In this document: piece by piece, positions 43,478 to 48,779 of the stretch
Position numbering within the stretch: position 1 is the first letter of the stretch
Layout: every line of letters begins with the position of its first letter
Source: Longimicrobiales bacterium
GTDB lineage: Bacteria; Gemmatimonadota; Gemmatimonadetes; Longimicrobiales; RSA9
Assembly: GCA_035764935.1 (NCBI GenBank)
Contig: DASTYK010000034.1
Location: 1-64,000, forward strand
DNA: 64,000 nt
Reading direction: 5' to 3'
Translations under genes and position numbers: made by a program
The notes under the pieces: generated by a model
What the model saw: only the letters and a program-made list of their open reading frames with translations
Told to the model about the DNA's origin: nothing
Database searches by the model: none

Positions 43478-45733
43478 GTGAATCCTTCGGCGTCGAACCT
43501 GCCGGGACCGGCCAGCCTGCCGAGGCTGTCCAGTTACGAGATCCGCACGTATCGCCTGCTGATGACGGTGACTTCCGTTCTCGTGCTGGCGCTGCAGCCG
43601 GTGTACGTGGCGACGGATCCGCTGGCGCGCGATCCCTGGCTGCTGCGTGCGCTCGCGGCCGTGGTCTGCCTGGTCGCGCTCGCCGCGAGCTTCCGGCTGC
43701 GAACGCCCGCACTGCGGCGGGTAGTGCTCGCCGCCTACAGTGCGGTCACCGCGTGGCTCCTCGTGCTGGTGGCGATCAACGCGTTCGCGTGGCAGTACGC
43801 GCTCACGCTGCTGGTCTTCGTTGCCGGCTTCACCGCAGGCGTGGCCGAGCGGCGGCTGCTCGCCTGGTACGGCATCGGCAGCGCCGCCGGGCTCGCGCTG
43901 GTCATCCTGCTGGTCGGGGAGCCGCGCATCGACCTGGCACCCTTTATCGCCGCGGTCGCCACACTCGCCCTGCTTTCGTTTACCGGCTTTGGCACGCGCA
44001 TGCTGGTCGAGGAACGCCTGGTCGCCAGCAGGGAGCGCTTTGCCCTGGCCGCATGGGGCGCCAACGACGGGCTGTGGGACTGGAACGTGGTGCGCGGCGT
44101 CGTCTTCTACTCGACGCGCTGGAAGGCCTCGCTGGGCTACGCGCCGCAGGAGATCGGTCATTCACTGGATGACTGGCTCGGGCGCGTGCACCCCGACGAC
44201 CGCGGCGCCGTCGACGCGACGCTTGCCGCGCTGCACGAGGGCGGCTCGCATTTCGAGGTGGAGTATCGCATGCGCCACGCTGATGGTACGTGGCGCCACA
44301 TGGTCGGACGCGGGGCGGTAGCGCGCGACCGGCGCGGCAGGGTCGTGCGTGTGACCGGCTCGCAGGCGGACGTGACGTCGCGCAAGCGCGCGGAACAGCA
44401 GCTGCTGCACGATGCGATGCATGACACCCTCACAGGCCTGCCGAACCGTGCCCTGTTCCTGGATCGTCTCGAGCGTTTCCTGCATCACGCGCAGCGGCGT
44501 CCCTCCTTCCGTTTCGCGGTCCTGTTCATCGATCTCGACCGCTTCAAGGTCGTGAACGACAGTCTCGGCCACCCTGCCGGTGACAGCCTGCTGATCGACG
44601 TCGCCCGGCGTCTCGAGCTGCTGCTGCGCCCCGAAGACACCCTGGCGCGCCTCGGAGGCGACGAGTTCGCTGTGCTGGTCGACGACGTGCGCGATGGCGA
44701 AGCCGCCGTGCGGATCGCGGACCGGATCCAGCACGCGCTGGCCGAGCCGTTCCGCACGCGCGGCCAGCGCCTCTACGTGTCGGCCAGCATCGGCATCGCG
44801 CTCGGCGGCGCAGGCAACACCACTGACGCGCTGCTGCGCGATGCGGACACTGCGATGTACCGCGCCAAGCGGCAGCGCGCGCGCTACGCCATGTTCGATG
44901 AGGCGATGCACGCGGAAGCGGTGCTGCAGCTCGAGCTCGAGAGCGACATCCGCCACGCGATCGAGCGGCGCGAGTTCGTCACGCATTACCAGCCGCTGGT
45001 CCGGCTGGACACCGGCGAGCTCATCGGGTTCGAAGCGCTCGTGCGGTGGATGCATCCGGAGCGCGGGCTCCTGATGCCCGACGTGTTCGTGCCGCTCGCC
45101 GAGGAGACCGGCCTCATCTCCGACATCGGCCGCTGGGTGCTCGACGAATCGTGTACGCTGCTGCAGCGCTGGCAGGAGATGCTGCCGGAGGGCCAGCCGT
45201 TCGTGCTGAGCGTCAACGTCTCGGGCAAGCAGTTCCTGGATGAGCGTTTCGCGGACGAGGTGATCAGCGTCCTGCGCGAGCGGCAGGTCCCCCACAGCGC
45301 ACTCAAGCTGGAGCTGACCGAGACGGCGATGATGGAGGACTCGGCCGCCGCCGCACGCGTGCTCGATCGGCTGCGCGCACACGGCGTATCCGTCTGGATC
45401 GATGACTTCGGGACCGGCTACTCGTCGCTTGCCTACCTGCAGCGGCTGCCGGTCGGCTCACTGAAGATTTCACGCCATTTCATGACGGGCCTGGCGAGCG
45501 GCGGCAGCGAGGCTGCACTCGTGCGTGCCATTGTCTCGCTTGCCGCGACGCTCGGCCTCGACACCATCGCGGAAGGCGTGGAGACCGAGGCGCAGCGGCG
45601 GATCCTGTGCGAGCTCGGCTGCCGCATCGGGCAGGGCTGGCTGTTTGCACCCGCCCTCGACGCCGAGGCGGCGACACGCATGCTGCAGCAGCCGCTGGCC
45701 GCGATCACTCCTCCGTCCAGCGACTGGCAGTAA
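43478..45733 (+). CDS. Membrane PAS-GGDEF-EAL protein (cyclic di-GMP turnover)
   Basis: A 751-residue protein with about six N-terminal helices (residues 25-190), a PAS_3 domain (about 195-300; DGLWDWNVVRGVVFYSTRWK), GGDEF (about 305-465) and EAL (about 480-740). The cyclase site is intact (GGDEF at 393-397) with an RxxD inhibitory site exactly five residues before it (R384-D387). The phosphodiesterase site is also largely intact: EAL 519-521, SVNVSG, ELTETAM, IDDFGTGYSS and AEGVET; LKISRHF has Ser where LKID is usual. Both activities are possible. GTG start at 43478. Its 3' end overlaps the next, convergent gene by 29 bp. Confidence 0.92.
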   Translation: MNPSASNLPGPASLPRLSSYEIRTYRLLMTVTSVLVLALQPVYVATDPLARDPWLLRALAAVVCLVALAASFRLRTPALRRVVLAAYSAVTAWLLVLVAINAFAWQYALTLLVFVAGFTAGVAERRLLAWYGIGSAAGLALVILLVGEPRIDLAPFIAAVATLALLSFTGFGTRMLVEERLVASRERFALAAWGANDGLWDWNVVRGVVFYSTRWKASLGYAPQEIGHSLDDWLGRVHPDDRGAVDATLAALHEGGSHFEVEYRMRHADGTWRHMVGRGAVARDRRGRVVRVTGSQADVTSRKRAEQQLLHDAMHDTLTGLPNRALFLDRLERFLHHAQRRPSFRFAVLFIDLDRFKVVNDSLGHPAGDSLLIDVARRLELLLRPEDTLARLGGDEFAVLVDDVRDGEAAVRIADRIQHALAEPFRTRGQRLYVSASIGIALGGAGNTTDALLRDADTAMYRAKRQRARYAMFDEAMHAEAVLQLELESDIRHAIERREFVTHYQPLVRLDTGELIGFEALVRWMHPERGLLMPDVFVPLAEETGLISDIGRWVLDESCTLLQRWQEMLPEGQPFVLSVNVSGKQFLDERFADEVISVLRERQVPHSALKLELTETAMMEDSAAAARVLDRLRAHGVSVWIDDFGTGYSSLAYLQRLPVGSLKISRHFMTGLASGGSEAALVRAIVSLAATLGLDTIAEGVETEAQRRILCELGCRIGQGWLFAPALDAEAATRMLQQPLAAITPPSSDWQ

Positions 45734-46343
45734 CGACAGGGCGCGCCCGCCCGTCCGGACCGGCCTCCAAGACATCTCGGCTGTCTGTACCATCCACCGG
45801 CGCCGCGCGCCGCCACGCGGCGTACAGCGCACCTGCCACTGCACAGGCGTAGACGAGGAGCCCCACCCCCCGTACCGCACGCGCGATCGTGCGATCGCGC
45901 TCGAGCAGTCCGACCTGCACCAGCAGAAACGTCCAGTCGTGGCCGGCCGGGTCACCGCCGAGCAGCGGAAGCTGCCGCGTCCGCGCGTCGCCGATGTACA
46001 CGGCCGCGTCCGTGAGAGCGAACGCCAGCCAGAGCCCAACGATCGCCGTCGCATAGCGGTCATTGCGCCGCCAGAAGTAGGCGATGAATACGACCGGAAA
46101 CAGCACCTGGAAGAGGGTGCCACCCAGCACCATGACGTATTCGCCGAACGGCATGAAGAGGACGTGGCCCGCCTCGTGGGTGGCGAGGATGACGTCGCGC
46201 AGGAAGACGTAGTGGAAGGGGTCCAGCACCGGTCGGCCCACGTACCAGGCCGCGAACAGCGCGAATGCGATCATCGCGTTGCGCTGCACGAGCAGCTCCG
46301 CGCGCCCGTGGCGGCCGATGTCGGCGGCGTCGCCTGGTGTCAT
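45705..46343 (-). CDS. Polytopic membrane protein with HEAGH zinc-protease motif
   Basis: A 212-residue protein with about four or five helices. Between two helices it carries VILATHEAGHVLFMPFGEY, with the HExxH signature of membrane zinc metallopeptidases (M50-like). I do not see the second M50 motif (NxxPxxxxDG), so peptidase activity is uncertain; LWLAFALTDAAVYIGDAR might supply a third acidic ligand. ATG 46343 begins the recognisable protein. Its last 29 bp overlap the end of the GGDEF-EAL gene tail to tail. The phosphoesterase gene lies 31 bp upstream on the same strand, so they may be cotranscribed. Confidence 0.65.
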   Translation of the reverse strand: MTPGDAADIGRHGRAELLVQRNAMIAFALFAAWYVGRPVLDPFHYVFLRDVILATHEAGHVLFMPFGEYVMVLGGTLFQVLFPVVFIAYFWRRNDRYATAIVGLWLAFALTDAAVYIGDARTRQLPLLGGDPAGHDWTFLLVQVGLLERDRTIARAVRGVGLLVYACAVAGALYAAWRRAAPVDGTDSRDVLEAGPDGRARPVVTASRWTEE

Positions 46344-46374: not shown

Positions 46375-47676
46375 TCAAGGCTGGAGCCGCTGCTCCAGCC
46401 ACGTCGCGGATTTCCGACCCGGGGTATACGGCCCGTCGTGTGCACGTGCGCGCACCGCACTCCAGCCGTGCTCACGGGCGAGCTCGCGCACCTCGTCCAG
46501 TTGCCCGGTGACCTCGACCAGCTCCACGTCCGGCACACGCCGCCGGCCGAACAGCGCATCGAGCGCTGCGCGGCGCTCCTGCCACGGCGCGTCCAGCAGT
46601 GCGTCGCCTCCGCTGAGCAGCAGGTCCCAGGCGTGGTACGTGGCGCCCTCCGCATCCGAGCTCACCGCGCCATCCAGCACGAATGACGTGCGCGCCCGTT
46701 TCGCCAGTGCCTGCAGTGCTTCCGTGATCTGCGGCCAGCCGCCCCGCGGATGCCCGGCGCTGTCGACCAGCGTCGCTGCATCCGGCGTCACGTACGCGAG
46801 TACACGCGTTCCGTCGGGTGCCGGCTCGAACGACCACCCGTCGCGTGCCGACAGCCGCTTGCGCTGTGTGGGCTGCATCGGCTCGATCGCGAGCGCGGCC
46901 AGGTCCGTCGATGGAGCGGGCGGGCCGCTGCCCCGGCTCCTGCGCGTCGCGCTGCCCGATCCGCGGTCCGAGTGCCACACCGCCGAGTCGCCGCGCGCGA
47001 TCTCGTCCATGGTCCTGCCGCTGTCCACGGAGGTGTCGATGTCCGCAGCAATGTCGTAACCGCGGCGTGCCACGGCATCGCGATGCTTGATCAGCAGCCA
47101 CTTCGGTTTCGGGCCGCTGTCCGTACGGACGAGTGCATAGGAGCCGCGCAGTCGCTCCCCCTCGAACGTGATGCTCAGCTTGCCCTGCTTCATCTCACGG
47201 CGGAGCGCGGCCTCGTGGTCCGTGTTGCCGGCCTCATCGGGGAAGTACGTGCCGCGGTCCCAGAGCATCACAGTCCCGCCACCGTACTCATCCTCCGGGA
47301 TGATGCCTTCGAAGGTGTTGTAGGCGATCGGATGATCCTCGACCTGCATGGCGAGTCGCTTCGCCGCCGGGTCCAGGCTCGGCCCCTTCGGCACGGCCCA
47401 GCTCTTCATCACACCATCCAGCTCGAGACGCAGGTCGAAATGCAGGCTCGTCGCTGCGTGCTTCTGGATGACGAACCTGAGGTGGCCACGGGCGCCCGGT
47501 GCGCGCTCCACGGGCGTATCCGGCGCCGTGTCGCTCGGTTCCGGTGTCACGTCGAAGTCGCGCTTGCGGCGGTACTCGGTGAGCTGTCTGCTCGCCTTGC
47601 CGTCCGGCTTTTCCGTCCGCTTCCGGGTCGGCCGCTTGCCGCTCGTCCGCCTGGTGGTCTTTCTGCCTGTTGTCAT
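46375..47676 (-). CDS. LigD-type 3'-phosphoesterase fused to a degenerate ATP-dependent ligase domain
   Basis: A 433-residue protein; ATG 47676 follows GGAGGCGAT. After a Lys/Arg-rich tail (1-40) the 3'-phosphoesterase domain (about 62-200) keeps all residues known from Pseudomonas LigD at identical spacing: H73, H79, D81, R83, H115, Y119. The rest (about 275-433) aligns with the ligase adenylation domain, but the catalytic Lys of motif I is Ala (FEPAPDG, A286), motif III DGE is DGA (A337), motif IV EGVxAKR is WSAVRAR and motif V lysines are gone. So end-healing is likely retained and ligation lost. No polymerase domain and no Ku gene nearby. Confidence 0.85.
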   Translation of the reverse strand: MTTGRKTTRRTSGKRPTRKRTEKPDGKASRQLTEYRRKRDFDVTPEPSDTAPDTPVERAPGARGHLRFVIQKHAATSLHFDLRLELDGVMKSWAVPKGPSLDPAAKRLAMQVEDHPIAYNTFEGIIPEDEYGGGTVMLWDRGTYFPDEAGNTDHEAALRREMKQGKLSITFEGERLRGSYALVRTDSGPKPKWLLIKHRDAVARRGYDIAADIDTSVDSGRTMDEIARGDSAVWHSDRGSGSATRRSRGSGPPAPSTDLAALAIEPMQPTQRKRLSARDGWSFEPAPDGTRVLAYVTPDAATLVDSAGHPRGGWPQITEALQALAKRARTSFVLDGAVSSDAEGATYHAWDLLLSGGDALLDAPWQERRAALDALFGRRRVPDVELVEVTGQLDEVRELAREHGWSAVRARAHDGPYTPGRKSATWLEQRLQP

Positions 47677-47861
47677 ATCGCCTCCGCAGGGCGAGTACGG
47701 TCGCAAGAAGCGGGCACGCCAGTGTGCGCGAGCGCGCCGTCGCACCGGCGATGATCCACGACTCACAGGCTCGTGCGCGGTGTGCGCGGCGGACCTGATC
47801 TTGCCGGGCAGCGCGCGGCGGGCAAACATCAGCGGACCCATCACTCGACGGAGGCACGCTC

Positions 47862-48779
47862 ATGATGCGATGGCTGGCAGCGGCGGGCATGATCGTGCTC
47901 GGCAGCGGGGCCGCGAATGCGCAGGAGCCGGAGGCACGCTCCCTCACGGGTTCCGCGCTGTATGCGCCGGAGCTCGCGCCGGCCACGCGTGCGCGGCTGG
48001 AGGCCGACCTGGCGCGCGCGCAGGCGGAGTACGACGCCGCACCCGATGATGCGGACGCGATCATCTGGCTCGGTCGCCGCCTGGCGTACCTGGGGCGCTA
48101 CCGCGATGCCATCGAGGTCTTCTCGCGGGGCGTGGATCTGCACCCCGACGACGCCCGCATGTACCGGCACCGCGGCCACCGCTACATCACGGTGCGCAGA
48201 CTGGACGATGCGATCCGTGATCTCGAGCGCGCGGCGGGGCTGACTCGTGGGCGGCCGGACGAGGTGGAGCCCGATGGCGCACCGAACCGCTACAACATCC
48301 CGACCAGCACGCTGCAGTCGAACATCTGGTACCACCTCGCGCTTGCCCACTACCTGAAGCACGACTTCGAGCGGGCGCTGCCGGCGTGGCGGCAGGCGGT
48401 CGCCGTTTCCACGAACGAAGACATGCTCGTGGCAAGCGCCGACTGGCTGTACATGACACTGCGGCGACTGGGCCGGGACGCCGAGGCAGCCGCCGTGCTC
48501 GAGCGCATCACGCCGGACATGCGCATCCTCGAAAACGATGCGTACCACCAGCGGCTGCTGATGTACAAAGGACTGGTCCGGCCGGACGCGCTGCTGTCCG
48601 TCGATACGGACGATGCCGTGCAGCTTGCGACGTACGGCTATGGCGTCGCGAACTGGCACCTGTACAACGGCGACGAGGAGCGGGCGCGACAGATCCTGGA
48701 ACGCATACTGGCCGGTCCGAACTGGGCGGCGTTCGGCTACATCGCCGCGGAGGCGGAGCTGGCGAGTGCGAATCGTTGA
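47862..48779 (+). CDS. Secreted TPR-repeat protein
   Basis: A 305-residue protein with signal peptide (AAGMIVLGSGAANA, then QEPEA) and a good ribosome-binding site (ACGGAGGC). Two or more TPR units are clear: DDADAIIWLGRRLAYLGRYR with DAIEVFSRGVDLHPDDARMY, then YHLALAHYLKHDFERALPAW. The C-terminal end lies in 14 bases shared with the next gene start. No enzymatic motif. Its coupling to the TreT-like and decarboxylase genes may reflect shared regulation only. Confidence 0.75.
   Translation: MMRWLAAAGMIVLGSGAANAQEPEARSLTGSALYAPELAPATRARLEADLARAQAEYDAAPDDADAIIWLGRRLAYLGRYRDAIEVFSRGVDLHPDDARMYRHRGHRYITVRRLDDAIRDLERAAGLTRGRPDEVEPDGAPNRYNIPTSTLQSNIWYHLALAHYLKHDFERALPAWRQAVAVSTNEDMLVASADWLYMTLRRLGRDAEAAAVLERITPDMRILENDAYHQRLLMYKGLVRPDALLSVDTDDAVQLATYGYGVANWHLYNGDEERARQILERILAGPNWAAFGYIAAEAELASANR

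Follow-up and report, generated by a model that had tools for sequence, protein, structure and literature searches.

The stretch of DNA analysed here (hereafter, the window) comprises 64,000 nucleotides from the genome of a Longimicrobiales bacterium (G000). On its minus strand, an open reading frame spanning positions 46375-47676, with an ATG at 47676 and a TGA at 46375-46377, encodes a protein of 433 amino acids. A GGAGG sequence (47681-47685) lies 4 bases upstream of the start codon, and the corresponding frame of the plus strand over 46375-47676 is interrupted by a stop. The protein carries an N-terminal LigD-type 3'-phosphoesterase (PE) domain (residues 32-200; 47077-47583) and a C-terminal adenylation (NTase) domain of a LigD-type ligase (LIG) from which the catalytic residues have been lost (residues 265-432; 46381-46884), and is referred to as PE-pseudoLIG. 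Between the two domains lies a low-confidence linker (residues 236-258; 46903-46971; pLDDT < 50). The first 30 residues (47587-47676), mostly predicted to be disordered (pLDDT ~40), form a basic tail with a net charge of +10, compared to a mean of +3.9 among active relatives; this tail is a possible DNA-binding extension.

Starting ~30 bases past the PE-pseudoLIG stop codon, on the same strand, is a HEAGH-motif gene (45705-46343), which apparently encodes a membrane protein and has no Pfam match; a TPR-repeat gene is transcribed divergently from the plus strand (47862-48779). The HEAGH-motif gene follows the PE-pseudoLIG orthologue of genome G011 in the same order, and the TPR gene is likewise found upstream of that orthologue, within a few kilobases; in a third genome, G005, the neighbourhood is shared in part. 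The PE-pseudoLIG gene is not adjacent to genes for Ku or for a LigD consisting of ligase and polymerase domains (LIG-POL).

The PE domain passes the curated cut-offs of both PF13298 (144.2 vs 31.1 bits; E = 1.9e-42) and TIGR02777 (199.8 vs 144 bits). Its best sequence match in the PDB is 5DMP, the PE of Methanocella paludicola, and the modelled domain matches 3n9b in Foldseek searches (E = 2.5e-17). The first-pass annotation had placed six PE catalytic residues at the spacing known from Pseudomonas LigD, and this assignment holds: across 66 aligned PE-domain proteins, which without exception carry the H-H-D-R-H-Y set, residues H73, H79, D81, R83, H115 and Y119 are in register with the 65 relatives and correspond to His42, His48, Asp50, Arg52, His84 and Tyr88 of the Pseudomonas enzyme, for which catalytic roles have been described (PMC8656161). 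Furthermore, 63 of the 67 PE columns conserved in at least 90% of 29 active Gemmatimonadota LigDs are retained by the window protein and both of its orthologues. Judging from these matches, the PE half is apparently an intact enzyme domain, and we infer that it is active. The window copy carries two substitutions, T125I and G129D (residues 125-129; 47290-47304), at sites that do not vary among the 29 active relatives and keep the usual residue in both orthologues, and these may affect its PE activity.

A ligase domain without ligase chemistry

The 29 active Gemmatimonadota LigDs, in which each of the ligase positions considered is invariant or nearly so, served as the reference for the losses in the C-terminal domain. 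In the window protein, the catalytic lysine of motif I is replaced with alanine (K286A; 46819-46821) and the adjacent Y287 is also lost; T305-R306-N307 of motif Ia has become D-S-A, the glutamate of motif III is an alanine (E337A; 46666-46668) and F350 of motif IIIa a tryptophan. Where active enzymes have EGxxAK at motif IV, the window protein has SAVRAR (residues 406-411; 46444-46461), with E406 changed to S and K411 to R, and the K-x-K of motif V is replaced with E-Q-R (residues 428-430; 46387-46395), K428 having given way to E and K430 to R. Altogether, 24 of the 58 ligase columns conserved in at least 90% of the reference proteins are retained by the window protein and both orthologues alike, and 17 are absent from all three dead proteins, including K286 and Y287 (motif I), T305-R306-N307 (Ia), F350 (IIIa), E406, K411 and R412 (IV) and K428, K430 and E432 (V). 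The comparison confirms the previously reported loss of the motif I lysine, the motif IV glutamate and lysine and the motif V lysines; the loss of the motif III glutamate, reported alongside, stands for the window copy but not as a general trait, given that both orthologues retain the motif as VLDGE.

When aligned by phmmer with the structure of the Mycobacterium tuberculosis LigD ligase, the catalytic lysine of the KWDG motif falls opposite Ala286. An alignment with a lysine at motif I was looked for and ruled out: no lysine lies between residues 274 and 325, so that realignment cannot yield one, and none lies nearby in any of the three proteins. Among those of the 66 PE proteins whose motif I could be read, the lysine is missing only in the window protein and its two orthologues, and all other LigD and ligase sequences with a readable motif I retain it. 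The C-terminal part scores barely over the cut-off of PF01068 (26.8 vs 26.2 bits) and far under that of the NHEJ-ligase model TIGR02779 (48.8 vs 227.75 bits). The protein stops at motif V, the OB fold being absent, and the POL domain that a full three-domain LigD would carry is found neither within nor near the gene. A frameshift or a detached downstream OB/POL portion was considered and rejected, because no remnants are present nearby; the only match with E < 0.1 (E = 0.008) lies in the region of a trehalose synthase-like gene, on the opposite strand. Of the hallmarks of ATP-dependent DNA ligases, the window protein thus lacks motifs I, III, IV and V and the OB fold (motif VI) and possesses the NTase fold.

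This fold is confidently predicted to be kept by the dead domain. The AlphaFold2 model has pLDDT values of ~81-96 from residue 261 to the C-terminus (~87-96 across most of the NTase domain), and in Foldseek searches the C-terminal part matches the LigD ligase of M. tuberculosis (6nhz/1vs0) with E ~4e-12 and a target TM of 0.47, a value expected because the OB fold is missing. The dead ligase domain is also under purifying selection (omega ~0.06). Pairwise dN/dS estimates are weak and close to saturation (pN/pS of 0.74-0.88 in the ligase part), and a maximum-likelihood codon model of the three sequences was therefore used. It yielded an omega of 0.10 for the PE and of ~0.07 (GY) or 0.03 (MG) for the dead ligase domain, the exact value being ill-determined with three sequences and near-saturated synonymous sites; for the latter domain, omega = 1 fits worse by 47 lnL units. 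Four residues, D305, R378, R380 and R411, are invariant specifically in the three dead proteins, which suggests some new constraint. The original reading of the gene as a PE fused to a catalytically dead ligase domain that retains the overall ligase fold is borne out by profile search and structure prediction, and it is strengthened by the two orthologues and the signature of selection.

Distribution in the family and a second LigD paralogue

A search of 99 related genomes recovered two full-length counterparts, G005:C46 and G011:C15, which are 53% and 52% identical to the window protein, respectively. Both have the same architecture and C-terminal end point, lack the motif I lysine and belong to two other genera of the family of the window genome. 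Profile searches covered the 12 family genomes, the complete set of 154 from the order, and class and phylum samples; beyond the three carriers, none of these yielded a further PE-pseudoLIG, and the weaker profile matches whose sequence was read are active ligases with the motif I lysine. Among the genomes searched, PE-pseudoLIG is therefore a family-restricted LigD paralogue. In a PE tree, the three dead proteins group together (82/73) and fall among the EPKYDGIR-type active LigDs of Gemmatimonadota (100/99), and since they are nested within active LigDs, the dead state is derived.

Among the 12 family genomes, exactly the three with PE-pseudoLIG, G000, G005 and G011, encode a PE-less LIG-POL LigD of a particular type, located at C89:54643-57081 (L206:6644-9082) in the window genome, on C23 in G011 (L207:6354-8447) and on C211 in G005 (L208:3630-5653), where a scaffold gap (Ns) breaks the gene. 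The three proteins form a single clade (98/95), and the G000 and G011 copies have intact LIG and POL motifs. The corresponding site of G001 and G004, recognisable by its shared flanking genes, holds a PE-LIG-POL gene, and PE has therefore most likely been lost from this LigD in the three carriers. The PE-LIG-POL relative is present and PE-pseudoLIG absent in G001, G004, G006 and G009. G003, from the same genus as G011, shows neither PE-pseudoLIG nor the PE-less LIG-POL; a contig start truncates the locus in G002, which was left out of the scoring. In G000, G005 and G011, PE and LIG-POL are thus found on separate proteins of one genome, in a split-LigD arrangement, and the two LigD paralogues appear to complement each other in the half that each has lost. 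The co-occurrence is suggestive rather than statistical proof, because the carriers may represent one evolutionary event and hence are not statistically independent.

The window genome additionally encodes a complete PE-LIG-POL LigD (C13) beside a Ku gene (C13:8967-9506; L074) and a further, tandem Ku pair (C72:14227-15760; L075 and L076), and G011 has a complete PE-LIG-POL LigD (C50), with Ku on C47 and C148; therefore, PE is not missing in these two genomes. In G005 (85% complete), no other PE and no Ku were detected. Tandem Ku pairs are also present in G003, G006, G009 and G011. Four other ligase-domain proteins are encoded in the window genome. A separate ATP-ligase of 416 aa with an intact motif I (EPKWDGFR) is located at G000:C167:12238-12822 (L183), near an apparent YebC-like gene.

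Proposed role of PE-pseudoLIG

The PE of LigD catalyses Mn-dependent removal of 3'-ribonucleosides and 3'-phosphates (PMC8656161). By homology, the PE of PE-pseudoLIG would remove the same groups with Mn and thereby heal 3' ends on behalf of other break-repair enzymes, acting in trans; the PE-less LIG-POL LigD of the same three genomes is the foremost candidate partner. The pseudo-ligase NTase domain would bind nicked or broken DNA, or dock on a partner, in a non-catalytic manner, so that the PE would be delivered to the ends handled by LIG-POL. We consider it reasonably probable that PE-pseudoLIG heals 3' ends in trans in this way and that its pseudo-ligase half provides DNA binding or docking. 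This reading draws on the PE scores and residues, the orthologues, the selection and predicted fold of the dead domain, and the PE loss from the second LigD; weighing against it are the complete PE-LIG-POL LigDs of G000 and G011, the position of the gene away from Ku and LIG-POL, the two substitutions at invariant PE sites in the window copy and the possibility that the three carriers reflect one event. The data are compatible with the DNA-binding or nick-sensing module proposed at first pass, and the comparative data lend at least equal support to docking on, or scaffolding for, the PE-less LIG-POL LigD. A more specific version, to which we attach tentative weight at best, is a two-subunit LigD that would have arisen by complementary loss, one subunit comprising the PE and a docking or end-sensing pseudo-ligase and the other LIG-POL, in G005 possibly operating without Ku.

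An unlikely but serious alternative is that the protein functions as a lone PE enzyme and carries its ligase half as a folded remnant, which merely stabilises it or persists as a roleless tail. Such a history would fit the faster evolution of the ligase domain (39-43% identity vs 66-69% for the PE), the bulk loss of invariant ligase sites and the existence of PE-only ORFs in other Gemmatimonadota (e.g. L019-L028), but it is at odds with the rejection of omega = 1, the fold predicted to be intact, the end point common to three genera and, as far as three sequences can suggest, the new constraint on D305, R378, R380 and R411. Less probable still is a regulatory function, whereby the pseudo-ligase, at ends that are adenylated or blocked, would compete with active ligases or cap them and so hold back sealing until 3'-end healing is complete. 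An NTase fold kept without its chemistry would suit this function, and the four other ligase-domain proteins of the genome could be the competitors, yet stable nick binding is doubtful for a domain devoid of the OB fold and the nucleotide pocket.

A pseudogene or an assembly artefact of a normal LigD might be suspected from the many lost residues and from the window genome being a single draft of 195 contigs, but is highly improbable in view of the identical architecture and shared losses in three genomes, the conserved neighbours in G011, the uninterrupted reading frame preceded by GGAGG, the purifying selection and the absence of OB/POL remnants downstream; indeed, unless the orthologues represent contamination, they and the selection refute a pseudogene. 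Finally, although the overall fold is retained, ligase activity by an unusual route, involving another nucleophile or cofactor, has a negligible chance of being correct, since none of the three proteins has kept motif I, Ia, IIIa, IV or V and no lysine lies between residues 274 and 325 of the window protein.

Relationship to known systems

PE-pseudoLIG and bacterial LigD (PE-LIG-POL; Pseudomonas, Mycobacterium) have homologous PE and ligase NTase domains and common PE catalytic residues, but PE-pseudoLIG is devoid of POL, of the OB fold and of the ligase catalytic residues. The domain order is the same as in the PE-LIG-POL LigDs of Gemmatimonadota, among which it is nested in the PE tree. Bacillus subtilis-type LigD consists of LIG and POL, with no PE; the candidate partner of PE-pseudoLIG (G000:C89, G011:C23) has the same architecture but differs in that two other members of the family have PE-LIG-POL at the site where it lies. 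Stand-alone LigD PEs (Methanocella paludicola 5DMP; Korarchaeum, Methanosarcina) are, similarly to PE-pseudoLIG, encoded apart from an active ligase; unlike it, they carry no domain of ligase origin.

Non-conventional NHEJ gene sets, in which LigD domains reside on separate proteins, have been described in a survey that scored domain presence (PMC7719229). These sets resemble the arrangement described here in that the PE is separate from the LIG and POL protein, whereas the attachment of the PE to a conserved pseudo-ligase sets PE-pseudoLIG apart; a dead LIG domain finds no mention in the passages of the survey consulted. A further parallel is provided by noncanonical prokaryotic PolX, a dead polymerase with an active attached nuclease (PMC9226535): in both cases, the main catalytic domain is dead and the attached nuclease or PE is kept, but PolX is another enzyme family, the activities of which have been assayed, whereas those of PE-pseudoLIG are predicted.

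Neither published pseudo-ligases nor a conserved dead LigD ligase with a PE were found in the open-access literature searched, which likewise yielded no example of a ligase domain retained by selection after total loss of its chemistry. If, in line with the reading we favour, the pseudo-ligase tethers the PE to ends or to the PE-less LIG-POL, the pair would represent a natural separation of healing and sealing. Surveys of bacterial end joining that score domain presence may mistake such proteins for ligases, as the window protein lies just above the PF01068 cut-off. In comparison with the known systems, PE-pseudoLIG is a lineage-restricted variant of split LigD: separate LigD domains were already known, and the dead ligase domain maintained by selection is, as far as the literature searched goes, the new element.
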